Shown one piece after another: positions 9,803-37,637 of a stretch of DNA of 64,000 nt (its first letter is position 1; every line of letters begins with the position of its first letter). The notes beneath the pieces are model-generated. The model ran no database searches. It was given only the letters and a program-made list of their open reading frames with translations, and was not told the origin of the DNA. The position numbers and the translations under genes were made by a program. Source of the stretch: Paenibacillus sp. D2_2 (GTDB taxonomy: Bacteria; Bacillota; Bacilli; Paenibacillales; Paenibacillaceae); contig NZ_CP133605.1 in NCBI RefSeq assembly GCF_031199965.1, forward strand, positions 2,326,501-2,390,500, given 5' to 3'.

Positions 9803-9817
9803 GAGAGGTTGCACAAC

Positions 9818-10891
9818 TTGAATATTCACATACAAGAAAATACTGATGCTACGCAGGTCGTAGCGTCGACCCGATACGTGTGTACGGCGAATCATGGATT
9901 CGCTCCGTACGCACAGGAGGAACTGCGTAGATTATTTGGCTCGGTGAAGAGTACCGTGCTTGTATCTGGAGAGGTATTGCTGGTTACTCTACCGTTTGAG
10001 TCACAGGAGATTGAGAGACGTTTTGCTGAGGTGCAGCCTCTATTTTTGCGTCATATGTTTCCAGTCAGTTGGCAGTGGACGGTTGATGTAGAGAATTCGA
10101 ACCGGGCTTGGGAGGATGAGCTTGTAGAGTACCTTCTTGCTGATGGGCGGATCAATGGGGCTAAGGTAGCTATCCAGCCACGGAAATCTGAAGGCTCATT
10201 GTGGCAGGAGAGTGCGCTTTCGTTCAAAGATATGCTTCAAGCACGGCTGGATGAATCCAAAGCTGAGTTTGTGGTGAGAGATGCCGATTTGATCGTATCT
10301 GTATTTATTGGGAAGGATCAAGTCCTGGTGGGAATCTCAACGCCGCAGCAGAATTTATCAGACTGGAATGGTGGAGCAATTCGTTTCCAGCGTGAGGAAG
10401 GGCAGATTTCAAGGGCGAAGTTTAAGCTCCTGGAAGCAGAATCAGTCTTTGATATCGATTTTTCGGCTTTTCATGAGGCGCTTGATATCGGGGCTGCCCC
10501 AGGGGGATGGTCCTCGTTCCTGCTGGAGCGAGGTCTTAAGGTAACGGCCGTAGATCCGGCAAAGATGCATCCATCGATACTTGATTCACCGCGGTTGACG
10601 CATATCCGAAAAAATGCGGACAGCGTTAAATTCCGTGAAGGACAGTTCGATTTACTCGTGTGCGATATGAGCTGGAATCCGAAACAGACGGCAAAAATGG
10701 TCATCGATTTGCTGTATGCGCTCGTACCGGGCGGAACAGCAGTCGTTACTGTCAAGCTGATGAGCAAGAAACCGATGGCGCTTATTCAGGAAGTTATCTC
10801 GCTGTTTGAGGCATCGCAAATGCAAGTACAGCGCGCAAAACAGCTGTTCCATAACCGTGATGAAATTACACTATATATGATTAAATATTAA
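9818..10891 (+). CDS. RlmM-like SAM-dependent rRNA 2'-O-methyltransferase
   Basis: 357-residue protein with an N-terminal RNA-binding-like half (about 1-190) and a C-terminal Rossmann methyltransferase. The SAM motif ALDIGAAPGGWSSFLLE is followed by VTAVDPAKM, the catalytic-type LLVCDMSWNP and a conserved lysine in VVTVKLMSKK, matching the K-D-K pattern of RlmM/FtsJ enzymes. E. coli RlmM modifies C2498 of 23S rRNA; the same target is plausible here. The TTG at 9818 is preferred over TTG 9809 because the GAGAGG site (9803-9808) is then 9 bp away. It is last in the operon starting with the glycosylase. Confidence 0.8.
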   Translation: MNIHIQENTDATQVVASTRYVCTANHGFAPYAQEELRRLFGSVKSTVLVSGEVLLVTLPFESQEIERRFAEVQPLFLRHMFPVSWQWTVDVENSNRAWEDELVEYLLADGRINGAKVAIQPRKSEGSLWQESALSFKDMLQARLDESKAEFVVRDADLIVSVFIGKDQVLVGISTPQQNLSDWNGGAIRFQREEGQISRAKFKLLEAESVFDIDFSAFHEALDIGAAPGGWSSFLLERGLKVTAVDPAKMHPSILDSPRLTHIRKNADSVKFREGQFDLLVCDMSWNPKQTAKMVIDLLYALVPGGTAVVTVKLMSKKPMALIQEVISLFEASQMQVQRAKQLFHNRDEITLYMIKY

Positions 10892-11007: not shown

Positions 11008-11036
11008 TTTTACTTCTTATAAGTTTATGCTATACT
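11008..11036 (+). promoter_or_regulatory. Possible promoter of the Tad-like locus
   Basis: TTTTAC, 17-bp spacer, TATACT. The -35 is weak, the -10 good. Transcription would start near 11043 and at once enter the terminator-like hairpin at 11065, so the spacing favours a regulated leader. Confidence 0.35.
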
Positions 11037-11064: not shown

Positions 11065-11124
11065 AGGGAAAGCATCCCGTTTAGTCTCGGCTAGTCCGAG
11101 CTGAACGTGATTGCTTTCCCTTTT
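11065..11124 (+). terminator. Leader hairpin with U tract before the kinase gene
   Basis: Three-tier stem: AGGGAAAGCA/TGCTTTCCCT outside, GTTTAG/CTGAAC in the middle and CTCGG/CCGAG around a CTAGT loop, ending in a short T run. It lies in the leader, ending about 8 bp before the ribosome binding site of the kinase gene, so it may attenuate the locus or end a short leader RNA. Alternatively it terminates read-through from the repair operon. Confidence 0.6.
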
Positions 11125-11146
11125 GTGTTGCAAAGGAGGTTATCGC

Positions 11147-12679
11147 TTGCCGCATATTGCGATGCTTGCTGAAGGAGATGTTATTGCGGGACGATACCGG
11201 ATCGAGCGCTTGATCGGACAGGGTGGCATGAGTCATGTGTATCTAGCTGCAGATTTAAAGCTTCCAGGTAAGCTGTGGGCGATCAAGGAAATGACGGACC
11301 GTGTGCCTAGAGAGATGCAATTGGAGGAGGAGGCAGCACTTTTGATCGCAATGAATCACCATCGTCTGCCGCGGATCGTTGATTTCTGGTCTAGTGAAAA
11401 CGGAGATCGTTCTTATCTTGTGATGGATTATATCGAAGGGGTACATCTTGATAAGTATGTGCGGCAGTTAGGCTCTAGCTTCAAGCCGGAAACACTGGTC
11501 GGGATTGGCATGCAAATATGCGAAGGTCTGCATTACTTACATAGCCGAAAACCACCGATTATTCATCGCGATTTAAAGCCTTCAAATCTGTTGATTGACA
11601 GTAAGGGCGAGATTCGGTTTGTTGATTTCGGCATTGCCCGCAAATTTCGGCCTAACGGTATCGAGGATACGATCAAGCTGGGGACGATTGGATTCGCGGC
11701 GCCGGAGCAATATGGTGGCCGTCAGAGTGATGGAAGGGCGGATTTGTATTCCTTAGGTGCGGTGCTGCTCTATTTGGGGACCCATTGCAAGTATATGGAA
11801 TGCACATCAGAGGCAATGACTCTGCTTGCCAAGAATGGATTTTCACGTCTAGGTCCTGTTATTGAGAAATTGTTACACAGCCATCCGGAGGAGAGGTTCC
11901 AAACAGCACAGGATGCGGGAACTGCCTTATCTAAGCTGCTCGAACGTTCACAGTCTCAAGGCATTAAGGCCAGGGGTAAAGAACAAGAAGGTGAAAAGGG
12001 TACATTTCCCGGTCGTTCTATTGTTATCGCTGTGATGGGAACCGGGCCGGGAGTTGGGGTAACGCATACAGCGATTTCACTGGCTCATTCGTTGGCCAGA
12101 TATTCTCGAAGGGTTGCTGTGATGGAGCTTGATCCCCGGGCAACAGCGTTGGAACGAATTCTGCATAGGCTTGGGGATGAGGGGAGACATTCCAGACAGT
12201 TGCCTAACCGTCGTGCTCGTATTGAGGGAGTTGACTATATCAGAACCAGCTCAAGAGTTGAGATGCTTGATCTATTCGCAAAGGACTACACCTACATAAT
12301 TTGTGATCTTGGTTCAAGCAGGCGTAAGGATTTGCTTGAGGAATATGTCAGGGCGGATCTGGCGATTCTTGTAGGCTCTTCTGCTGTGTGGAGGGTTGAT
12401 GAATTGGAGCTGTTCGCTGCCGCTGCTCCAGGTCAAATCAAGCAATCGCCGGTGTACTGTCTTCCGTTTGTGGCTGGAGCAGAGGTTAGCAGGCTGCAGA
12501 GAACACTGGATACAAAGCAGGTCTATGCATTACCAGCCGATAGCAATCCGTTCGTCCCGGACAGGCCATGGAGATGGCACTGCTCCAGGCATGTAGTGAA
12601 GTGCTACCTCAAGGCATTCGTCCGGTCAAACGTGGATTCTGGTTATCCAGTAGAAAGTAGTGAAGGAGAAGTGAGATAG
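11147..12679 (+). CDS. Ser/Thr protein kinase fused to a MinD/CpaE-like domain
   Basis: 510-residue soluble protein. The N-terminal half is a Hanks-type kinase: glycine loop IGQGGMSHVY, ATP lysine in WAIKEM, catalytic loop HRDLKPSN, DFGIARKF and APEQYGG. There is no PASTA domain or membrane segment. From about residue 295 a second domain opens VIAVMGTGPGVGVTHTAISL and continues with RRVAVMELDP, the layout of MinD/CpaE ATPases but without the P-loop lysine. The TTG at 11147 has AAAGGAGG 7 bp upstream. Near the end another frame reads QAMEMALLQACSEVLPQG and stops at 12660; one missing G at 12559-12560 would join it, giving 504 residues. It heads the Tad-like gene set, so it probably regulates it. 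Confidence 0.85.
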   Translation: MPHIAMLAEGDVIAGRYRIERLIGQGGMSHVYLAADLKLPGKLWAIKEMTDRVPREMQLEEEAALLIAMNHHRLPRIVDFWSSENGDRSYLVMDYIEGVHLDKYVRQLGSSFKPETLVGIGMQICEGLHYLHSRKPPIIHRDLKPSNLLIDSKGEIRFVDFGIARKFRPNGIEDTIKLGTIGFAAPEQYGGRQSDGRADLYSLGAVLLYLGTHCKYMECTSEAMTLLAKNGFSRLGPVIEKLLHSHPEERFQTAQDAGTALSKLLERSQSQGIKARGKEQEGEKGTFPGRSIVIAVMGTGPGVGVTHTAISLAHSLARYSRRVAVMELDPRATALERILHRLGDEGRHSRQLPNRRARIEGVDYIRTSSRVEMLDLFAKDYTYIICDLGSSRRKDLLEEYVRADLAILVGSSAVWRVDELELFAAAAPGQIKQSPVYCLPFVAGAEVSRLQRTLDTKQVYALPADSNPFVPDRPWRWHCSRHVVKCYLKAFVRSNVDSGYPVESSEGEVR

Positions 12680-12682
12680 TAA

Positions 12683-13575
12683 ATGATTAGAAAACGGACA
12701 AGGCAATTTATATATGCCGGAATTGTCGGTGCTGGAATCGTCGGTATTGCCTTCGTAGGTTATGCGATCCATGCTTCAAACAAATTGGAGCAGGTACGTA
12801 CATCCGTGACTAAGCAATACGAATCTGAAATATCCGCGATGAAACAGGCTTCCGGTAATGTTGTCACCGGCTGGACCTTATCGCGGGAAATTCCAGCTGG
12901 AGAACGCATTACGAGACAGGATCTGACTTCGATTGTGCTTCCTGTGGACAGCGTTCCGGGTGATTGGTTGAAGGCCTCTGAGAATATCGTTGGTAAGGCC
13001 GCCAAAATTACGGTCGCTCCCAAAACGCTGCTTACCGACTCTTTGTTATTTGAGGAGGGGCAGTCTCAGACGATCTTCGTTATCGTGAGATGGGCTTCAT
13101 CCAGTTGCCGGGTGAATTGAAGCAGAAGGATGTCGTCGACATTCGGATTCAATTCCCGACCGGACAGGATTATATTCTGCTGTCCAAGAAGCGGGTTGAA
13201 TCACTCTCTCCCGGTGTTGTTACGTCAACCCTCAATGAAGAAGAGATTCTGCTGTTGTCCAGTGGGATCGTAGACGCTTATTTACATAAGGCATCTATTT
13301 ATGCCCTTAAGTATGTGGAGCCGTACTTACAACGGGAAGCTATAATGACGTATCCGCCAAGCGATGCCGTGCTTCAGGTGATTCGAAAGGATCCGAATAT
13401 TGTGGATATGGCGGAGCACGCACTGACAGCTACGATAAGAGCGGGACTGGAGGGCGATTTGGCGTCGGTCACGTCGCAGCGTGCGGCTGAATTTATGAGC
13501 CAGAAATCCACTTCTACTTCGGTCCGCACCTCGCAGGAGGGGAGCGATTCATTTGTGCTCGATGCTGGGAAGTGA
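12683..13575 (+). CDS. CpaB/RcpC-like SAF-domain pilus protein, frame broken once
   Basis: Membrane-anchored protein with one N-terminal segment (IVGAGIVGIAFVGYAIH), a coiled stretch, then a SAF domain starting SREIPAGERITRQDL, as in CpaB/RcpC proteins of Tad pili. The frame shifts in the G4 run at 13057-13060; one more G gives EEGAVSDDLRYREMGFIQLP and a 297-residue protein. The C-terminal part (VVDIRIQFPTGQDYILLSKKRV) continues the beta-clip region. In Gram-negatives CpaB works at the cell envelope with the secretin; here the outer part would lie in the wall zone. Confidence 0.75.
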
Positions 13576-13632
13576 TAGTAACAGGAATCGGGTGGTTTGG
13601 TGGGTTGACAAGGTCTATTTGGAGGGGATCGG

Positions 13633-14349
13633 ATGAAACGTTGGCTATTCGCCGGGGTGAGCGATAAGCGGGAGCTTATCCTCTACATATGTAAGCTGCT
13701 CACTGCGTCCGGACAGCGTGTATTGCTAGTGGATCGAACGGCCGAGAGCAAATATCAATATCTCACTCGTAACAGAGAGGCCGCTTTACCGCTAATCGAG
13801 TTCTGTGGCTTTGATATCACCAGTGGGAAGCTAATAACTACAGAAGAAGGAACTGGATTGCCAGAGGCAACCCGTATTAGGGACGAGAGCTATGATTATG
13901 TACTTTACGATTATGAGTTGGATCAGCCAGAAGAAAGAGGGCTATGCTCGCAAATGGATCAGTTTATATGGGTGACCACCTATGATCATTATGAGGTGGA
14001 ACGAAGTGCTGACTGGTTCAGACAATTGCTTCGCTCGGATCCGGAACTGGCAGGCGTCCGTGTTCATCCTGTTCTGATAAGAACGGTGGAGAGCTACTTG
14101 ACCGCAGATTACATGATAAGTCTGGCAGATGATTTACCGATAGAGTGGAATACAGAGGTTGCGTGCATCCCCTGGAATGAGCTTAATGCGGCCATCCATT
14201 ATGAGAACGGGCATGAGCATATGCTTCATATTCATCGAATCACCAGCTCTTATAGAAGAGCCTTGATATCTTTAATTATACAGTTGACAGGCTGGACTAG
14301 AAACGAAACAAAAAGGGCGATGCGCAGCGCAAAAAGGAGGGTCATATGA
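13633..14349 (+). CDS. Tad-locus protein with degenerate ParA/MinD-like fold
   Basis: 238 residues, start ATG with GGAGGGGATCGG upstream. The N terminus reads RWLFAGVSDKRELILYICKL then QRVLLVDRT: a beta strand, loop, helix and second strand placed as in ParA/MinD ATPases, but the P-loop KGGxGKT is absent. Later segments (YDYVLYDYEL, FIWVTTYDHYEVERSADWF) resemble the switch and effector strands of that fold. The stop overlaps the next start (ATGA). I infer a CpaE-like localisation role without ATP hydrolysis; no exact family is recognised. Confidence 0.55.
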   Translation: MKRWLFAGVSDKRELILYICKLLTASGQRVLLVDRTAESKYQYLTRNREAALPLIEFCGFDITSGKLITTEEGTGLPEATRIRDESYDYVLYDYELDQPEERGLCSQMDQFIWVTTYDHYEVERSADWFRQLLRSDPELAGVRVHPVLIRTVESYLTADYMISLADDLPIEWNTEVACIPWNELNAAIHYENGHEHMLHIHRITSSYRRALISLIIQLTGWTRNETKRAMRSAKRRVI

Positions 14350-15173
14350 GTCGAATTGTTATATGGGATTACGGTTATAGCGGTGCAGAGGATATCGCGG
14401 CGGCGATAGCCATTGTAACATCACTATACCAGAGACGGCGTGTATTGCTGATTAATGAAGAGGATGTCGGGCATGGAGTAGAGCAAGGATTTCCCGTGTA
14501 TGACGCTGCAGTTAATAGAGATAGCTCGAAGATTACGGAGACCGGGACGGAAGCTTTGCTGCGGCTTCTTATCACTCAGCGCATATCACGGTATAACTTT
14601 GTGGACTATACAAGACCGTTGATTAACAGTCGTCTTGACCTCATCCCCGGTGCTAGTGGAGGACTGAACAGGCAGGCAGACGCTGCGCTGTTGCAACAGT
14701 TATATGCAGTAGCGGAGGATGTGTATGAATTCGTATTCCTGCATCGGAGCGGCATGTCGCTACCTGTTGAAGAAGCGGAAGAGGTGCTGCTGCTGCCTGT
14801 ACTTCAACAGAATCGTATCGGACTTGACCCATTTTTTGCATATTATCGATCTTGTTCTGAGGTCTCAAGGAATAAGGTAAAAGGAATCATTCTCCGTAAC
14901 TACGATCGTCAGGCCAAATGGAATATCGCAAATATCAAACGGTACTATAATTGTGAAATTCCGATTTATGGCATCTGTTATGATACTGGGTTCGCAGATT
15001 CATGGAATGAGCATGACCTGCTTCGGTATTTCCGTCGAATTCACTTGCCTGGTCGCATGGGAGCAAAACGTGGGACTATGCTGGAAGCTCTACAGGAGCT
15101 TGGTGGAGCATTATCCGCAGTCTCAGATAATTATTTACCTCCGTCATCCCTATCTGATGACAAGGGGGCTTAG
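14346..15173 (+). CDS. Second Tad-locus protein with degenerate ParA/MinD-like fold
   Basis: 275 residues, overlapping the previous gene by 4 bp and with AAAAGGAGG in its end. It opens RIVIWDYGYSGAEDIAAAIA then RRRVLLINEED, again a first strand, loop, helix, second strand in MinD layout with no P-loop lysine. YNFVDYTRPL and YEFVFLHRSGM could be later core strands. It looks like a diverged relative of the preceding protein and of the kinase's C-terminal domain. Function unknown; location points to the Tad-like machine. Confidence 0.5.
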   Translation: MSRIVIWDYGYSGAEDIAAAIAIVTSLYQRRRVLLINEEDVGHGVEQGFPVYDAAVNRDSSKITETGTEALLRLLITQRISRYNFVDYTRPLINSRLDLIPGASGGLNRQADAALLQQLYAVAEDVYEFVFLHRSGMSLPVEEAEEVLLLPVLQQNRIGLDPFFAYYRSCSEVSRNKVKGIILRNYDRQAKWNIANIKRYYNCEIPIYGICYDTGFADSWNEHDLLRYFRRIHLPGRMGAKRGTMLEALQELGGALSAVSDNYLPPSSLSDDKGA

Positions 15174-15175
15174 CT

Positions 15176-17016
15176 ATGGAACGACTTACGAACGGGATCG
15201 GGATTGCTTTGATTCTGCTTCTGGCACTTCTTCTCGTCTGGCTAAGGGCTAGAGCAGTATCTGAAGATAAATCAACGAGTAAGGTGATTCATGAACGTTA
15301 TAGCCTACCCGATCTCATCGCCTATGTGAAGTTTCAACTACATGAACTGAGCCGCAATAAGATCAATCAATGGGGAATGGGGAGGAGTCCTGGGCACGTA
15401 AAGTGAAAGCAAGAACAGAGCTGCGCCAGGCACTGAGGGGATGTACTTATGGAGACCGTAGTGATAAGCGATTCGTTCAAACTTATATCCGTGATTTGCT
15501 ACTTGAAGGATACGGGGTAACTGAGGAGAACATTGAACAGATTATTCCCTTTCAACAGCCATCAAGGCTGACTCACCAGGATCGGTTCGAGGTAATCTTC
15601 TATCTATATCGCAAAAGATACGGTGAAGATGCATTGTCGGTTCTAATTGAGGAATACGAGCTCGACGAGCCGAAGCAGACGACAGAAGTTGAAGAAGGGT
15701 ATGTGTACGAAATTAACGGCGATGATATTGATTACTGCTTCGGTAGAGAATACAGACAGCTCTGCTTCGAAGAGAAGCTGGATATCGTCGTTCAGCGCGT
15801 CTATCAGTCCTATAAGGGTTTCTCTGTCATCGATAGTATGCTGGAGCAACGAATCGATGGAATAAGCGGCGGAGTAAGCGGAATATCCGGATCCGGTCAT
15901 CTTGGTTATGAGCAGAATGATGTTAATGGAGCTACGTTTGGGACAGGCATTGAAGCTCCACTGGACGAAGATGGGCGAGATATATCTCGAGTATGGGAGA
16001 GCGTTTGGATATTTTATAAAGGGAAGAGTATCAGACTTCCTTTCCTATCCTTCGACAGTGAGTTCGAGCTCAGAAGGATCTGCCAAAATATATATAAATA
16101 CAATTTGCCAGGTCAATTGTCAGAGGCCAGCGGATTTAAGGTGAACGATATGAAGGATGGTTCCCGGGTTGTCGTTGTCCGGCCTCCTTTTGCAGAGTCG
16201 TGGGCCTTCTTCGTCCGTAAATTTGATACTCAGGGAGCGACGCTTGAACAATTAATACAGGGCCGGGATTCAGAACTTCCAGTTCAGCTTCTGAAATATC
16301 TTATGAAGGGCAGCCGGATCACTTCGATTACTGGCTCGCAGGGCTCAGGTAAAACGACGCTGTTAATGGCGCTGGTCAAGCATATCTATGCATCTTATAC
16401 ACTTCGTGTTCAGGAGATGTCTTTCGAATTGAATCTGCGAAAGCTGTATAGTGCAAGAAATATACTTAGTTTTCGAGAGACAGAATACGTAAGTGGACAG
16501 GCTGGCCTTGACCTGCAGAAGAAGACAGATGGGACCGTACATATACTCGGTGAGGTAGCTACGGATGAAGTTGCTTCCTGGATGATACAAATGGCACAGG
16601 TAGCAAGCCTCTTTACCGTGTTCACGCATCATGCTAAGACCTTTCCTGATTTGGTCGATTCATTACGGAACTCGCTGTTGAAGACGGGAGTGTTCCGGGA
16701 TGAGCGGGTCGCCGAGCTGCAGGTTGCTGGGGTTATCGATTTTGACATCCATTTGCGCAGAGACATTCACGGCAATCGTTATATTGAGCGGATTACGGAG
16801 TGTTGCCGCCGAAGCGATGGCGAAGCCGAAATATTGACCGGAGAACGAACCTATCAGGCAAGGACGATTGTTGAATATGTAGATGGTCAATACCGGATCA
16901 TGCAACCGATAACCGAACAATGTCGTAATGAAATGCGGCGTGAGATGCTTCCGGAAGATGCCCTCCGTTTTGAGCAATTTCTGACTCAGTATTGGGGGGA
17001 GCAGATTGGAGCTTAA
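15176..17016 (+). CDS. tadA: TadA/CpaF-type secretion ATPase, frame broken once
   Basis: Corrected length 613 residues. It starts with a membrane segment (IALILLLALLLVWLRARAV), unusual for a TadA ATPase, then an N-terminal domain and the RecA-like motor: Walker A GSQGSGKTTLLMAL, Asp/Glu box VQEMSFELNL, Walker B region HILGEVATDEV and His box FTVFTHHAKTF. The frame breaks in the G4 run at 15372-15375; one more G joins NKINQWG to NGEESWARKV. An alternative is two genes, with a 76-residue membrane protein first. It powers assembly of pilin subunits at the cytosolic face. The stop overlaps the next gene's TTG start. Confidence 0.82.
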
Positions 17017-19103
17017 ATCGATCTTGTTATGGATCGCATTTATATCATTTCTATTATTTGGCGGCGTCTATTTGATCGCTTTAGAGATTCGTAGGCGTGA
17101 AGAGAAGAAGGCAGGAGAGCTTGGGATTGCCTTAAATACTGCGACAGCGGGGCCAGGACTCTCATCCAGCTTCAAAGTATTCTGGGCGGCTCTACTATTA
17201 CGATCCTATGCCTTTTCAATGAAAGTGCCACCCTTACGGTTATATGTGCTGAAGGTACGTGGCCGCATCTCGTTGCTGCAGACACCAGATGAATTCGAAT
17301 TAAGAAGGCAGACGATGAAGCTCGTATATTCATTGCTTGGCCTATCTGGGATTGCGGTGGTCTCGCTGACATTGATGCATCCTAACGTGCTGTTCTTCCT
17401 CACAGTCATAATTGCTGTTGTCGTCATTCATGGGCTTATGCTCGAAGGTTATGTGGGGAGGCTGGAGAAGAAGCTACTGCTGCAAATGCTGCAGTGGTTC
17501 GCTGCGGTTAGACATGCCTATCATGCACACGAAATGGTAGCGGATGCGATCGACGAAGCGAATGAAGGCGCGAGTGAGGAACTGGCCAGACATGGGGAGA
17601 AAATCTATGAAGCTCTTATCTCAGCTGAGCCGGATAAGGAGCTTGATCGCTACTATGAAACTGCACCTAATCGTTTTCTGAGGGGCTTTGCCTCGATTTC
17701 CAGGCTGATTATGGAGTACGGAGATCGTAAGGATGAACAACAGGGATCGCTGTATTTGCGCGGGATCTCGAGCCTGACTGGGGAGATACAGCTAGAATTG
17801 ATGCGCAGGAACAAGCTTGATTACTTGCTAAAAGGACTCAGTCTAATTGCACTAGCTCCTATTTTCTTCACGAAGCCTATTGAACTTTGGGCCAGACGGA
17901 ATTTTCCACTGATGGATCAATTTTATTTAAGCAAGCTCGGAATCTCTATTCATATCGGCCTGTTCATTGTTATTATGCTCAGCTATATCCTGCTGCAGAA
18001 ACTAAAAAGTGAGGAAGCAACCGCCTATCGGGCTGGCGTGGATATTTCGGCTTGGGAGGCAAAGATCTATCGCTATAAGGCGGTAAGAATGATTGTCAAC
18101 TGGTTCTGTCCACCGCCAGGATCACATTGGTACGATCACATCGTCGAACTGCTTAAGGAGACGAATCAGACCCTTCGTGTTGAATTACTTCAGGTAAGAC
18201 GAATCGCAATTTATCTTGGTTGTCTATTCCTCATGGTGGGCTCCATTAGTTGGACACATTGGAAGAGCAGGGAATGGATTGTAGCTGAGCCGCCTGGCAA
18301 GTTACGTATTTCTTGGCACACTCTCAAAGGAAGAAGGGGAAACTGCTCAGAAGATGGTAGAGCTGGAGCGGCAGATCCTACGCAGCCCAGGGATATCCAC
18401 GGCGGACGATGATGCAGTAACACAAATCGTTACCACGGTGACGAAGCAGATCGGCTTGAAGCTGGATAAAGGCAAGGTAGAAGCGATTACCCAACGTGTT
18501 ATGGACAAGCTTGATCGCTATCAAGCGGAGTACTGGAAATGGTGGGAGGTTATGCTTGCCCTCGCATTGCCCATGCTCGGGTATTACAGTCCGATCTGGA
18601 CACTTCATTTCCAACGTAGATTAAGATTGACAGATATGAGGCATGAAGTGTATCAATTCCAGACGATGATCATGATTTTACGAGAGTTCGAACGTATCTC
18701 GGTAGAAGCGATACTGGAGTGGCTATACAGTTACGCCATTATTTTTAAAGCCCCACTTGAGAAGTGCTTGGCCTATTACAGCGCAGGAGCCCAAGAGGCT
18801 CTTCAGGGATTGAAGAATGAGATTGCGCTGGAGGAGTTCCAGCGCTTGAGCGAGCACTTGGCTCAGGCAGAGGAGAAAATACCAATTAGAAAAGCGTTTG
18901 ATGATTTGCAGAGCGAGATGGGGTTTCAGTTTGAACGGAGACGACTTGATTATGAGAAGGATTTGGATATGAAGGCTGAACTGGGCCGGATGATCGGTTT
19001 TGCTCCCATGTACTCCATGATTTTCGCATATTTAGTTATTCCACTGATTTGGATGAGCTTCAAGCAGATGGATGTCTATTTTCAACAAATTCAAAATCTA
19101 TAA
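17006..19103 (+). CDS. TadB/TadC-like integral membrane platform protein, frame broken once
   Basis: Up to 698 residues with about seven membrane segments: one at the N terminus (LLWIAFISFLLFGGVYLIAL), a long hydrophobic pair near 110-150, two near 280-340, one near 400, and two in the last third (WWEVMLALALPMLGYY and MYSMIFAYLVIPLIW). A cytosolic helical domain (LLLQMLQWFAAVRHAY) fits the T2SS-F platform fold. One extra base near 18290 separates the two parts; removing a C gives VAERLASYVFLGTLSKEE. It may be one large protein or a tadB-tadC pair. The TTG start overlaps tadA's stop, with GGGGGGAG upstream. Confidence 0.65.
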
Positions 19104-19217
19104 TGGTAGTCAAAATAGCTCCGCTCTTCAGACCCTAGCTTCATCCAACTGAAGTGTTTTGAAAAAACGCACATCGGAAGAATAAGCTTCGGTGCTGAAA
19201 ATCGAACTTTTTGAACT
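19104..19217 (-). repeat. Dispersed inverted-end repeat, copy D (reverse), inside the Tad-like locus
   Basis: Read on the minus strand it starts GTTCAAAAAGTTCG, has CAGCACCGAAGC, the GTTTTTTCAAAAC hairpin and GGATGAAGCTAGGGTCTG, and ends GAGCTATTTTGAC with a decayed right arm. It separates the platform gene from the small pilin-like genes, splitting the locus into two parts. Confidence 0.78.
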
Positions 19218-19243
19218 CGAAATTATAACTAGGAGGAAAAAAT

Positions 19244-19729
19244 ATGAATAACGCTTCATCCGCATTAAAGGTAGCAGCTGGAATCTTCCTAACGATCGCG
19301 CTGATTACGATTGTTGTTGTCTTATTCGTCTCGGCTCAGGAGGCGACGAAGACGGCGCAGAACAATTTTTCAGACATTCAGACCGAACTGTCTCAGGCCG
19401 CTTTTACAGTATACGATGATACGACCGTTAGCGGTTCGCAGGTAACGAATGCACTACGTAAATTTAAAGACCGCGATCAATTCGGCATCCGGGTTCTTAC
19501 GGGTAAGAACCGTCAAGGGGAGTGGTATGGAAATACTCTGAATATTACTGGTAATGCCGATGAATTTGGGTCTGTCATAAATAAAAGTAATACGGACATC
19601 AGCAATTCATGGAACGAGAGCTTAAATGAATATGTGAATCCGAGCGGGAAGTTCAAGGCCCGGGTTGTTAAGGATAATTCTAATGTCGTGCGCGGCCTGA
19701 TCTTCACGCAGACAACTGTGAGTCCTTAA
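19244..19729 (+). CDS. Small pilin-like protein of the Tad-like locus
   Basis: 161 residues. A short N-terminal stretch (MNNASSALKVAAG) leads into one hydrophobic helix (IFLTIALITIVVVLFVSA) and a polar, Asn/Thr-rich domain to the end, the general shape of a pilin or pseudopilin. There is no clear prepilin peptidase site with Glu+5 and no Flp signature. The start has CTAGGAGG. It follows the repeat and opens a set of four tightly spaced genes, each with an N-terminal membrane helix. A major structural subunit is a guess from shape and position. Confidence 0.55.
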   Translation: MNNASSALKVAAGIFLTIALITIVVVLFVSAQEATKTAQNNFSDIQTELSQAAFTVYDDTTVSGSQVTNALRKFKDRDQFGIRVLTGKNRQGEWYGNTLNITGNADEFGSVINKSNTDISNSWNESLNEYVNPSGKFKARVVKDNSNVVRGLIFTQTTVSP

Positions 19730-20145
19730 TGTACCGTTCGCTCAAGGATATGATGTGGCTGCTCTGTTCCACGATACTGTGCATGGGCGCCCTTATATAT
19801 ACGCTTGATCATAGCGAGAGGCAAGCTCTGGTATTGGAAGGGATGGTCCCCTATATTCAGAATCAGAAGGTTAGTGTAAATACGCAGAATTGGATGAATA
19901 AAGCTATTCTGACGCAAAGCAGTTACGCTGGTGCGCAGATTTTATACGGTCTGGCAGATTGGCTGGATCAAGGAGTACAACTTCAGGTAGAAGATGTCCC
20001 CATTTCAGAGGTAGTTGACATCCCTTCTATATTGAAGACTGTCATTGAGCTCGATCGTAGTTATACCTATGATGCCGAATATGATCAGATGGGGCAGCTG
20101 TGCAACCTTTCCTTTCACCTAGTTACAGGAGGCGTTACTCCATGA
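19729..20145 (+). CDS. Unrecognised Tad-locus membrane protein
   Basis: 138 residues, start overlapping the previous stop by one base (TAATG), so translation is coupled. One N-terminal hydrophobic segment (MMWLLCSTILCMGALIYTL) and an outer domain with WMNKAILTQSSYAGAQILYGL. No family is recognised. Order and topology suggest a minor pilin or assembly factor. Confidence 0.5.
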   Translation: MYRSLKDMMWLLCSTILCMGALIYTLDHSERQALVLEGMVPYIQNQKVSVNTQNWMNKAILTQSSYAGAQILYGLADWLDQGVQLQVEDVPISEVVDIPSILKTVIELDRSYTYDAEYDQMGQLCNLSFHLVTGGVTP

Positions 20146-20696
20146 GTAATCCGCTATCGAAGATAGTTGCGGCGCTGTTGGTAGTGGCTCTGCTGGTGCT
20201 GTACCCTGCAGTTCAAGCAGCAGAGCGCGAGGAGAATATAGCCGTATTAGCTGCTTACAATACGATGGTTCAATTCACGGATGCTGTTAGAAATAAAGGT
20301 TACTTGTCTGCTAGTATGTACGAAGATCTCGAGCGTGAGTTGGCTGTCTCCGGCCAGGTCTATGAGGTGGAGTTAGAGCACAGGCATAAGAAATATCATC
20401 CTGAGTATGACGATCCGGCTGATAGTGCGACGTTTCAGGATCGATTCAGCGTCATCTATGATTCCTACTATACGCCAGAGCTTATAGGTCGGTTATTTCC
20501 TGAAAACAACGGGTCGGTAGATGATCTAGACAGGTTGTACAAGATGGAGACAGGTGATTTCTTCTCTGTTGCGCTGACGAGACGCTCGGTTTCTCCGTAT
20601 CAGGTGTTGACTGGATTCCTGAAGGTTCCATCTGCGGCCGGGAGGGATTCGCAGACGATGCATTATGGGGGAATAGTTCTAAATGAAGATTACTGA
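20142..20696 (+). CDS. Unrecognised Tad-locus exported protein
   Basis: 184 residues from the ATG at 20142, preceded by AGGAGGCG and overlapping the previous stop (ATGA). A signal-like segment IVAALLVVALLVLYPAVQAAER could be a signal peptide with cleavage after AQAA-like VQAA, or an anchor. The outer part (YNTMVQFTDAVRNKGYLSASMYEDLERELA) resembles the general plan of TadE/F-like minor subunits but carries no motif I can name. Confidence 0.5.
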   Translation: MSNPLSKIVAALLVVALLVLYPAVQAAEREENIAVLAAYNTMVQFTDAVRNKGYLSASMYEDLERELAVSGQVYEVELEHRHKKYHPEYDDPADSATFQDRFSVIYDSYYTPELIGRLFPENNGSVDDLDRLYKMETGDFFSVALTRRSVSPYQVLTGFLKVPSAAGRDSQTMHYGGIVLNEDY

Positions 20697-21663
20697 TTGG
20701 GCTATTATCTTTGTCATAATCGTCAGCCCATTTCTCTGGGCTCTTTCACTGTATACCACGGATCTGCAGGAGGTTAACCGCCTGCAGATCCACTATACAA
20801 CAGCGCTTCGGACTGCGGTACAGGATGCAGGGAGCGTGTTGAACCGAAATGAACTTCAGCAATTTGAGGTGGGATACGGCTCTAGTAAATATATGCGGGC
20901 AGATAAAGAACGGGCCCTGTCAGTTCTTCTGCAGTCGCTCGCGATCAACTTTGGTATAGCAGATGACCCACTGGCTCAAGCGGCATTTATGAAATATATT
21001 CCTTCTATAGTAGTGATCGATTACGACGGATATTGGATCTATGCGCTGGATGAGATTCGCGGAGCTGATGGAGAGCCAAGTTTAGAGTACCGCTGGCACC
21101 CAAAGAAGCGCTATGTTTATATGGATGGTGAGGGGAACAGCGTTGCTTTTACGCTGGATTCTTATATTAGGGTGATCTCTTCATCTACTGGTGAAGAGGT
21201 ACGGGGGTTACTCGAGGATATTGCTACAATAGTTGACATACCGTTACTGCAGGATGCAGCTGTGTTCGACCAAGTAAGACGTTCGACCATCGTGCACCAG
21301 ATTGAAGAGGATTTGCAGCAAGTCATCGCTGTACATAATGAATTTACCGCTAGATTAGGCTACACCTATACCTTCACTTTGCCTACGATCCCTCAAGAGG
21401 AGTGGAATAATACGTTGGATGATGTCGGGATTATCGCCTTCCTGCAGGGAATTCCCGTCGGGAATCATTACTATAACAACTTTGCTCTTGGGGGTGGGAG
21501 GCTGAGAAAGGCAGAGAGAATTGAAGGCGGATTCGATCCGGCAACGGGGATAAAATACTATTACTATGCAAAGTGCGAGGTTCCTTATAAAACCGAAGAG
21601 GTGTTCGCACGCAAACAGGAAGCTGCATCACAGGGTTATTATGAAGCCGATTGCAGGCCATAA
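20683..21663 (+). CDS. Unrecognised Tad-locus membrane protein with large outer domain
   Basis: 326 residues, overlapping the previous gene by 14 bp. One N-terminal membrane helix (WAIIFVIIVSPFLWALSLY) then about 300 residues of soluble domain containing YIPSIVVIDYDGYWIYALDE and FTLPTIPQEEWNNTLDDVGI. Family not recognised. It is the last gene of the Tad-like set, followed by a strong terminator. A minor pilin, tip protein or assembly factor would fit the topology. Confidence 0.5.
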   Translation: MKITDWAIIFVIIVSPFLWALSLYTTDLQEVNRLQIHYTTALRTAVQDAGSVLNRNELQQFEVGYGSSKYMRADKERALSVLLQSLAINFGIADDPLAQAAFMKYIPSIVVIDYDGYWIYALDEIRGADGEPSLEYRWHPKKRYVYMDGEGNSVAFTLDSYIRVISSSTGEEVRGLLEDIATIVDIPLLQDAAVFDQVRRSTIVHQIEEDLQQVIAVHNEFTARLGYTYTFTLPTIPQEEWNNTLDDVGIIAFLQGIPVGNHYYNNFALGGGRLRKAERIEGGFDPATGIKYYYYAKCEVPYKTEEVFARKQEAASQGYYEADCRP

Positions 21664-35428: not shown

Positions 35429-37637
35429 ATGATTAGAAGATTAAAAATAAGAACGTTAGTCATAGGCGGCTGCATTACTTTTTTCTTCATCATATTGTTA
35501 GTACGTGTATTCTGGGTGCAGGTCATGGAGACGGACTTCTGGCAGGCGTATGCCGAGAAGCAGTGGTCAAGACGCCAGATCTTGTATGCGACCAGAGGGA
35601 CGATCACGGACCGTAATGGCGAGGTCCTGGCTATGATGGCACCTGCCTATACGGTGTCGGTCAATCCGAAGCTGATTAATAGTCTAGGACTGCAGGAGGA
35701 AGTGGCCACTGGACTTAGTGAAGTGCTTGGCAAGAACAAAGACGAACTGGTCAAGCTGGTGAATGCGAAGAATAAGGATGGGAACTTCTACGTACAGCGA
35801 GAGATACGCTATGAGGGCTATAAGATCGATCAGGAGCTGAGTGACCAAGTAGAGGCATTTACCCAGAAATTGAAGGACAAGCATGAGATCATTGACGTAG
35901 GGATCTATCAGTCAAAGGAGCAAAAGCGGTTCTATCCGTGGAAAAGTCTCGCGGCGCATGTTCTGGGATATGTTGACCGTGACGGCAAGTCCGTGTCCGG
36001 ACTCGAATCGATGTATGATGAGGAATTGAAAGGACAGGATGGCTCTTTTGAATATAAAAGTGATGGCCGGGGAATTACGGTCACAAGGGCGGATGAGATC
36101 TACAATCCAGCGAAGGACGGAATGAATATCGAGCTGACGATTGATCATACGATCCAATATTATATCGAAGAAGCGATGAAAGAAGCATTTGATGAGCTGC
36201 AGCCGATCAGTATGACGGTCATTGCCGCTGATCCGAAGACGATGGAAATATTGGGCATGGCAAACCTTCCTACCTATGATCCGAATACGTATTGGCTGGA
36301 AGATGATCTGGGAAATTTTTATAATCATGCAATCAAATCGGTGTATGAGCCGGGTTCGACTTTCAAGATTGTGACGCTAGCTGGTGCTGTAGAGGAGAAT
36401 CTATTCAATCCAGAGGCCAAATACATGTCGGGGAGCATTAAAGTGCCGGGCGCGACATTGCATGACATTAAGCATGCAGGCTGGGGAATATAAGCTATCT
36501 GGAGGGAGTCAAGCGTTCCAGTAACGTAGCCTTCGTCAAGCTTGGTTATGAAATGCTCGGACCAGAGCGTTTGAAACAGTACGTCGATGACTTCGGATTT
36601 GGGCAAAAGACAGGTATCGAACTGCCCGGTGAAGCTGGGGAGTCGTGAATCCGGAACGACCAGTCGAATATGCGACCATGTCCTATGGACATGGGATATC
36701 GGTTACGCCTCTGCAGCAGCTGGCTGCGGTAGGTGCTGTAGCCAACGGGGGATTGTTACTTAAACCGCATATCGTTAGATCGATTACCGATCCGCTGTCC
36801 GGAGAAGTAACTAAGACAAAGCCGGAGCCTATTCGTCAAGTAATAACAGCGGACAAAGCCCGTGAAGTTGGAGAATATCTGGAGCAGGTTGTATCCGATA
36901 GCGAGTTAGGGACCGGACGCTACGCTTATATTGAGGGTTATCGAATTGCCAGGCAAGACGGGTACAGCAGTTAAGTCAATCAAGGGCAAATATGATTATA
37001 ACAAGCAGGTCGTGTCATTTATCGGATACGCGCAGGTCGATGATCCCAAGGTCGTGATGCTGGTTGTGATCGATCAACCGAGTAATTCAGACCTGGGCGG
37101 GGGTAAGGCAGCAGCACCGGTATTCAGGAAAATTATGAGTCAGACGCTCCAATATTTAGGAGTAAGTAAGAAGATCACCAAGTCAGACAACAAAGACGTA
37201 GCAGAGGCAGAGGTCATAGATTTGCTCAGAGCGCCGGATTTAAGCAAGCTCTCTTGCAGCAGGCAACAACTGAGCTTCGCAATAGGAATATTCCTTATTC
37301 CTTGCTAGGCGATGGGCAAGAGCTTGTATCACAATTTCCGAAGCCAGGGAGTTCGCTGATTAAGGGGCAGCAGGTATATCTTCTGACCGAAGCGGTGGAG
37401 CATATCGAGGTACCGGATCTCAAGGGACAATCTCTGAGAGATGCGCTTGAACTGCTATCAGTGCTTAATATTTTTGTAACGTTAGAGGGTGAAGGCTTTG
37501 TTGTCTCGCAGAAGGTCTATGAAGACAGCGGGAATAAACAGGTGAACCTTGTGCTTAAACCCCCGAGTGAGGGAATTAGAGGTAACGAAGAAGAACAAGA
37601 AGACGGCGATCAAGCTGTTGAATCCGGAAGCGATTAG
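35429..37637 (+). CDS. Class B penicillin-binding protein with PASTA domains, frame broken four times
   Basis: Peptidoglycan transpeptidase, corrected length 736 residues. N-terminal anchor ([19 protein letters not shown]), dimerisation domain ([12 protein letters not shown]), transpeptidase domain with SxxK in EPGSTFKIV, SxN in KRSSNVAF and KTG in GKTGTAVKS, then two C-terminal PASTA-like repeats ([20 protein letters not shown] and [16 protein letters not shown]). Breaks: missing G at 36483-36486, missing G at 36637-36640, one extra base near 36951, missing T at 37239-37241. All motifs survive, so sequencing error is likely. The layout is SpoVD/PBP2-like, but no division genes are adjacent. 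Confidence 0.88.

Follow-up and report, generated by a model that had tools for sequence, protein, structure and literature searches.

A Hanks-type kinase fused to a MinD-like domain heads a conserved Tad-like operon in Paenibacillus

The locus at positions 11147-21663 of the window studied here (the whole stretch of 64,000 nucleotides (nt) analyzed from the genome of Paenibacillus sp. D2_2, contig NZ_CP133605.1) encodes, on one strand, a fusion of a Ser/Thr kinase with a MinD-like domain, then a SAF/CpaB protein, the proteins designated P238 and P275, a TadA/CpaF ATPase, a membrane protein, and the distal proteins D1-D4. The locus is real and conserved, and the kinase at its head is not dedicated to the machine encoded behind it, since it persists where the machine is gone; being kept in genomes without the machine, the kinase probably does something more general. 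The constants of this genomic niche are the kinase, the niche itself, and a leader hairpin, the machine being optional. The reading that we prefer, at a probability of about one-half, is that a soluble kinase is a general hub and that the Tad-like machine is an optional client governed by it. An initial annotation made from the sequence alone had placed a Tad/type IV pilus-type machine at the same coordinates, which hold.

Kinase fused to a MinD-like domain

The first gene (11147..12679, plus strand) has a TTG start at 11147, preceded by AAAGGAGG, and encodes a Hanks-type Ser/Thr kinase domain (PF00069, E-value 1.4e-38) followed by a MinD/ParA-like domain devoid of the P-loop lysine. The fusion described in the initial annotation is borne out in both halves, as the tail matches CbiA (E 9.2e-6) and the best PDB match of its 25-sequence profile is Soj (E 6.5e-6; Soj/ParA/FleN structures). 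Conservation was followed in 57 fusions (56 from fetched loci and that of the window), a set that includes one fusion (L067) dropped by extraction based on open reading frames (ORFs). The VAIK lysine, [HYF]RD, DFG, and the catalytic Asn are present in 56 of the 57, the exception (L119) being degenerate. The P-loop lysine is absent from all of them, and in 55 fusions (all except L036 and L119) the two residues that follow its place are T-H. The MinD-like half occupies the CpaE position of the operon; the N-terminal atypical receiver of TadZ/CpaE was not found in the fusion, the kinase domain standing in that place.

The next two nucleotide-fold proteins, P238 and P275, proved to be MinD-like, as had been proposed. 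P238 (13633..14349, plus strand) has a shortened glycine loop; the best PDB matches of its profile are MinD/FlhG/ParA (E 0.0018-0.004), and hhalign relates it to the MinD-like profile of the fusion (88%, E 3e-6). P275 (14346..15173, plus strand) was modeled by AlphaFold2 (predicted local distance difference test, pLDDT, 87.8; predicted template modeling score, pTM, 0.87), with 3ea0 as the best Foldseek match (E 4.9e-10). At E up to 0.001 the model matches 274 PDB entries, and the 50 listed belong to the ParA/MinD superfamily (ParA, MinD, FlhG/FleN, BcsQ, McdA, Soj, nitrogenase Fe protein, and HypB). By this model P275 has the MinD/ParA fold, and profile comparison points to MinD/ParA-like folds for the fusion tail and P238. 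The claim that none of the three domains has the P-loop lysine stands for the fusion and nearly so for P275, in which the lysine of the deviant TadZ/CpaE Walker A motif is absent from 28 of 29 sequences (L049 has GKT). It stands only in part for P238, since Lys12, aligned by hhalign with the P-loop lysine column, is present in the shortened loop of 29 of 32 sequences.

The further proposal that phosphorylation replaces ATP-driven CpaE placement gained no support: loss of the lysine is not tied to the kinase, and the kinase persists without the machine. In four paralogs (L066, L072, L073, L075) the lysine-less domain has a non-kinase N-terminus and is followed by a C-terminal hydrophobic helix, and the loss thus appears independent of having a kinase. 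Two other paralogous operons (L056, L057) have a canonical KGGxGKT CpaE at the head. No receiver was recognized in the non-kinase N-terminus, either by Pfam or when the L057 copy was searched against PDB sequences; this part may be called receiver-like by position. L119, with its degenerate kinase site, and L120 have kinase-MinD fusions too, next to canonical Tad genes, either TadA or one that is TadE-like.

The leader and the kinase without operon

The upstream neighbor of the kinase gene is a gene for an FtsJ-like methyltransferase ("RLMM", 9809..10891, plus strand; PF01728, E 1.2e-15), which adjoins the kinase whether the operon is present, partial, or missing. Between the two genes lies the terminator-like leader hairpin (11066..11125, plus strand; z of -5.9 in the window), which ends about 21 nt 5' of the kinase start. 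The arms of the hairpin are near-constant (GGGAAAG[C/T]ATCCC ... [G/A]CTTTCCC), and its inner stem varies. The arm motif was found in 50 of the 57 fusion loci (all except L061, L083, L084, L086, L094, L119, and L120) and in 11 of 12 same-niche kinases of other genera. As the inner stem could not be aligned, per-sequence shuffles were used in place of covariation. In 98 distinct sequences, whose 5' arm invariance is partly set by the search pattern, the inner stem folds above the shuffle mean in every case, with z below -1 in 96 and a median interior z of -3.8; 8 further loci with a different hairpin tail lie outside this set. Two-sided changes were seen in only one of the eight aligned arm pairs.

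Scanning of 197 genomes of the family gave 82 matches to the leader pattern in 79 genomes, compared with 2 matches for the reversed pattern used as a control; in the window genome the exact pattern occurs once. Seventy matches are within 2.5 kb of the MinD-like domain of a fusion, and 7 of the remaining 12 (two of them overlapping) are located just behind the methyltransferase gene, with a kinase gene next in each. The matches in G028, G168, and G160, the second in G065, and the first in G020 fall outside the regions fetched. No Rfam family matched the leader up to E 1, and a known RNA family was accordingly dropped as its identity. Specificity for the Tad operon is ruled out, since the leader also occurs 5' of orphan kinases and of same-niche kinases of other genera. 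A role as methyltransferase terminator only was set aside, as the fetched regions behind the methyltransferase each had a kinase gene next, although the hairpin may serve as such a terminator as well.

A sigma-70-like promoter candidate (11009..11036, plus strand; 9/12, with TG before the second hexamer) lies upstream of the hairpin; it is weak, with 2 sites found in the region versus 0.7 expected in shuffles. Among the 43 hairpin-bearing fusion loci with an assignable kinase start (7 of the 50 have none), the median distance between hairpin and start is 24 nt, and in 35 it does not exceed 40 nt. With the gap this short (about 21 nt in the window), transcripts of the kinase should pass through the hairpin, which suggests attenuation.

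The lysine-less domain was located at 125 places in the 197 genomes (E up to 1e-30), of which 92 are within 8 kb of a strong TadA match and 33 are not; 27 of the latter were fetched. In 19 genomes of one genus the methyltransferase and kinase genes are followed by ABC-F and/or ThiF genes, with no operon gene recognized between, and 16 of these genomes are absent from the list of strong TadA matches. Partial loci contain the kinase and P275 in four genomes of another genus, and the kinase and P238 in one genome of the genus of the window. The remaining fetched places are L119, L120, and L090, a shorter place with only a partial kinase match. In a tree of 57 rows, the 19 operon-less kinases form one clade (support 100/100) among operon-bearing kinases, and the five partial loci require two further events. 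The simpler reading is three separate losses of the operon (in 19, 4, and 1 loci), the kinase active site staying intact. The ratio of nonsynonymous to synonymous substitution rates (dN/dS) of orphan kinases, 0.19-0.27 in seven pairs, is indicative of purifying selection.

A kinase in the same place, 520-562 residues long, was also found in 12 of 13 genomes from seven other genera (none in G057). These genomes have no match to the fusion profile at E 1e-8, and none is on the strong TadA list; six were chosen by a match to the leader pattern (kinase in 6/6) and seven were not (6/7). No operon gene was recognized in the stretches fetched from them (5-9.5 kb). In a second tree, built without L094 and L119 and carrying a long-branch warning for L224, L230, L223, and L222, the other-genera kinases constitute one side of a fully supported branch. 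In genera without the operon, a conserved response-regulator-like gene often comes next after the same-niche kinase (L217, L219, L226, L227, L229, L230), in several cases with a histidine-kinase-like gene behind it.

The Tad-like operon

The gene order of the operon is recognizable in 40 loci fetched from related genomes for their TadA. Twenty of these are primary orthologs (L036-L055); the other 20 are for the most part paralogous or remote, and five of them (L058, L061, L064, L067, L068) likewise lie in the methyltransferase niche. In a search of named genomes the best 80 of 205 loci were kept, which are therefore close relatives and include strains of P. polymyxa, P. macerans, and P. amylolyticus. 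All 76 of these loci that are at least 19 kb long contain TadA, the membrane protein, and D1-D4, and 75 contain the kinase fusion (the exception is L189). This recurrence of the gene set in related genomes is far beyond chance, and the conservation of gene order suggested as a check in the initial annotation is thereby established. The 92 places linked to the lysine-less domain were counted among 129 strong TadA places (E 1e-70, with TadA matches listed to E of about 1e-17 and split TadA places counted once); 82 of the 92 have an ORF of at least 488 amino acids, which is a length criterion and not a kinase match for each place.

The motor and its partners are those of a Tad-like system, and both had been predicted. 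The CpaB/RcpC-like SAF protein (12683..13575, plus strand; PF08666, TIGR03177) scores above the cut-off for SAF and, in this split gene, below that for TIGR03177 (E 6.8e-10). The TadA/CpaF-family ATPase (15176..17016, plus strand) matches TIGR03819 (E 3.2e-10) below its curated cut-off; in a profile of 12 relatives, all of which keep the Walker A lysine, CpaF is the only PDB match at E 0.001 (best 1.4e-12). An N-terminal hydrophobic helix of the ATPase, out of frame with the rest in the window, is present in all seven relatives checked, and the motor is predicted to be anchored in the membrane. The next gene (17006..19103, plus strand) encodes a multi-pass membrane protein of about 700 residues in the place of TadB and TadC, with six to nine hydrophobic segments, some overlapping, in seven relatives. 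The TadB/C-like platform of the initial annotation stands as regards topology and gene order, though not sequence: T2SSF has no match in the window, in an intact relative, or at the same place in three genomes, and a comparison with TadB of the genome's own Tad loci gave no match (a two-sequence profile, hence weak). T2SSF also fails to match the TadB-like genes of the Tad locus at 1.26 Mb in the same genome.

As was also predicted, a single hydrophobic segment lies at the N-terminus of each of D1-D4 in the relatives checked, and no Flp pilin was recognized. D1 (19244..19729, plus strand; about 160 residues) is conserved more strongly than any other operon protein, with 74-83% identity to the same-genus copies aligned. 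Its AlphaFold2 model consists of a 53-residue helix and a small beta head (pLDDT 83.9, pTM 0.62), and D1 is a candidate filament subunit. Many public records of D1 are labeled "ABC transporter permease" although the model has a single N-terminal helix and a beta head. D2 (19729..20145, plus strand), the profile of which cross-matches D1, and D3 (20142..20696, plus strand) are single-helix proteins, and D4 (20683..21663, plus strand) is a large single-helix protein and a tip-like candidate. Mature type IV pilins have Glu5. In many relatives D4 starts with MKIT[D/E], with an acidic fifth residue in the unprocessed protein. The Flp prepilin cleavage motif was found in 2/34 D1, 2/32 D2, 13/35 D3, and 5/36 D4 sequences, with a crude pattern that matched one of two control pilins.

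No TadV is encoded at the locus, and the search for a TadV-type peptidase elsewhere gave PF01478 only at 1.258 and 4.250 Mb of the genome, outside the window (2.327-2.391 Mb), which agrees with the peptidase-free window of the initial annotation. Each of these places belongs to another Tad locus with a peptidase and small Flp-like pilins, neither being the present locus. The second Tad locus (L201, 1.254-1.2735 Mb) has a prepilin peptidase, a Flp-like pilin, a degenerate MinD-like protein, and, by their translations, YukD-like and DUF5050-like genes, and resembles the Tad locus linked to the type VII secretion system (T7SS) variant T7SSg described in part of PMC11217815. The third (L202, 4.2465-4.2625 Mb) has a prepilin peptidase, TadE-like proteins, a Flp-like pilin, and a CpaE bearing GGLGKTT, and frame breaks interrupt both this CpaE and the TadA of the locus in the assembly.

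The CpaF-family motor and CpaB would also be expected of a conventional Gram-positive pilus of the Tad/type IVc kind whose pilin has diverged, its kinase gene being a mere neighbor that shares the promoter. The adjacency could indeed be passive, since the same place can hold the kinase and no operon. Nonetheless, such a pilus is unlikely: the MinD-like half sits in the CpaE position, the fusion is present in all 26 methyltransferase-niche operons examined, and neither TadV nor a Flp pilin was recognized. Moreover, operons of other families (L083, L084, L086, L094) begin with the fusion, although the head of L085 is mostly of the non-kinase form. As three of them (L083, L084, L086) are operons of another family, the pairing of kinase and machine is probably old, although it may reflect gene transfer.

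The beta head of the D1 model, unlike Flp pilins, would suit a protein-secretion or DNA-handling machine in which D1-D4 form a short pseudopilus pushing cargo. Some paralogous operons are followed by genes for exported proteins that, from their translations, have SLH domains or are copper-amine-oxidase-N-like, and one (L069) contains a WXG100 gene. No constant cargo gene was seen next to the operon, however, and the T7SSg-like genes of the genome, identified from translations, are at another Tad locus, so that we consider a secretion machine quite unlikely. The WXG100 gene (L069:2951-3289; PF06013, E 3.6e-7) lies between the CpaE-like gene and CpaB, as does a small gene in a second paralogous operon (L074:2990-3334) that is WXG100-like by eye.

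The host genome is a single contig of 5.75 Mb with a completeness of 93.4%, and in this assembly CpaB, the N-terminus of TadA, and the platform gene change frame. A fourth break, at the C-terminus of the kinase (last ~35 codons), is indicated by the point at which alignment to relatives stops. Four breaks within 10.5 kb could mark a decaying pseudo-operon, non-functional in this strain. We regard decay as distinctly improbable, and assembly errors as likelier, since frames are also broken in genes of this genome unrelated to the locus, and the locus is intact in Paenibacillus sp. GM2 (L121), the closest relative that has a name; the breaks were dropped as a genuine biological feature on the same grounds. 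Each of the four genes is one open frame in relatives, and GM2 and P. motobuensis are close to the window genome (D1 identity 92 and 94%, respectively). Other split genes are the second TadA and a penicillin-binding-protein-like gene at 35429-37637 of the window, broken into several frames, which is more evidence of indels in the assembly. The proteins were therefore described from intact relatives.

Proposed mechanism and known systems

What we infer for the kinase, its substrates, and the hairpin is as follows. RNA polymerase transcribing the kinase gene, and with it the operon, would run through the hairpin, which would act as an attenuator. The MinD-like half of the fusion would dock with P238 and P275 in a TadZ/CpaE-type scaffold gathering the motor and the membrane protein, and the kinase would phosphorylate the scaffold or the motor, setting whether they assemble. 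TadA would then drive a D1 filament or piston through the CpaB channel, probably unprocessed by a prepilin peptidase. Where the operon was lost, the kinase would keep another target. The broadest form of this proposal is possible but rather doubtful: a family-wide module with a fixed core, the kinase and "dead" MinD domain behind a conserved attenuator hairpin, and an interchangeable, repeatedly dropped output, a leaderless and peptidase-independent type IV-like machine with three pseudo-MinD subunits.

Several observations weigh against a kinase-governed machine with the kinase as general hub. By sequence profile, the resemblance of the fusion tail to known structures is confined largely to its first ~50 residues, and the tail of the other-genera kinases matches the MinD-like profile in only 4 of 12, although all 12 have by eye a GxG[A/S/G]T-type loop without lysine. 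Paralogous operons exist without any kinase. The membrane protein may be the platform, to judge from position and topology. The D1 model has no PDB match at E 0.001, and no pilin is among the matches listed for it by Foldseek and VIA-align. The gap between hairpin and kinase start exceeds 60 nt in 6 of 43 loci, four of which (L101, L107, L113, L114) have 101-286 nt, leaving room for a promoter, and a terminator scan gave no site for the window hairpin, whose U-tract is short. Finally, the dN/dS of orphan kinases is somewhat above the 0.05-0.15 of five other pairs (one further non-orphan pair was saturated), as relaxed constraint would give.

The kinase-governed reading nonetheless offers a concrete testable case, a CpaE-type protein with a kinase where the receiver would stand, together with natural deletions that removed the operon and kept the kinase and that separate the general role of the kinase from the machine. 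It also raises the possibility that common soil bacteria, strains of P. polymyxa, P. macerans, and P. amylolyticus among them, build a type IV-like filament whose subunits undergo no prepilin processing.

A literature search found no description of this combination of a kinase-MinD fusion and a Tad-like machine. The locus shares with Tad/type IVc (Flp) pili the CpaF/TadA motor, the CpaB/RcpC SAF protein, a MinD-fold protein of the CpaE/TadZ type, and the clustering of genes. It differs from them in the lack of a recognized Flp pilin and of TadV at the locus, the N-terminal membrane helix of the motor, one large protein (with no T2SSF match) for TadB and TadC, three MinD-fold proteins, and the kinase fusion. 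The pilus-type machine of the initial annotation is thus retained as a Tad-like machine of Gram-positive type with a kinase-MinD fusion at its head. It probably functions much as a Tad machine does, yet it does not qualify as a Tad system, because the tests for a Flp pilin, TadV, the receiver, and the P-loop lysine came out negative.

Gram-positive tad-like loci (C. kluyveri, D. hafniense, and others) described in a section of PMC3244431 likewise combine tadA, tadZ, rcpC, and unknown genes with no recognizable prepilin; the clostridial ones have no prepilin signals. Unlike the present locus, they have tadV and tadC, and that section names no kinase; Paenibacillus is not mentioned in the text of that paper. 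T7SSg/T7SSh have neighboring Tad genes, Tad genes occur in Paenibacillus, and kinases are common in T7SS clusters, according to part of PMC11217815; in the genome studied here, the T7SSg-like genes that were recognized belong instead to the Tad locus at 1.26 Mb, which has a peptidase. In Paenibacillus sp. NAIST15-1, motility was unaffected by deletion of putative pili genes at two loci, one of which may correspond to the present one (a passage of PMC5072692). The present Ser/Thr kinase lacks an extracellular receptor domain, as do Hanks kinases such as YabT (part of PMC6333020), but where YabT carries a membrane helix at its C-terminus the present kinase carries a MinD-like tail.

A close parallel is TadZ/CpaE, such as TadZ of E. 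rectale: in both, a MinD-like domain with a degenerate Walker A motif heads a Tad-like cluster. A section of PMC6668835 ascribes an "atypical Walker-A" to TadZ and tests a fission scenario for TadB/TadC, and the single large platform here would fit the fused TadB/TadC form. Unlike TadZ/CpaE, the present protein lacks the P-loop lysine throughout and has a complete Hanks-type kinase in place of the atypical receiver of TadZ.

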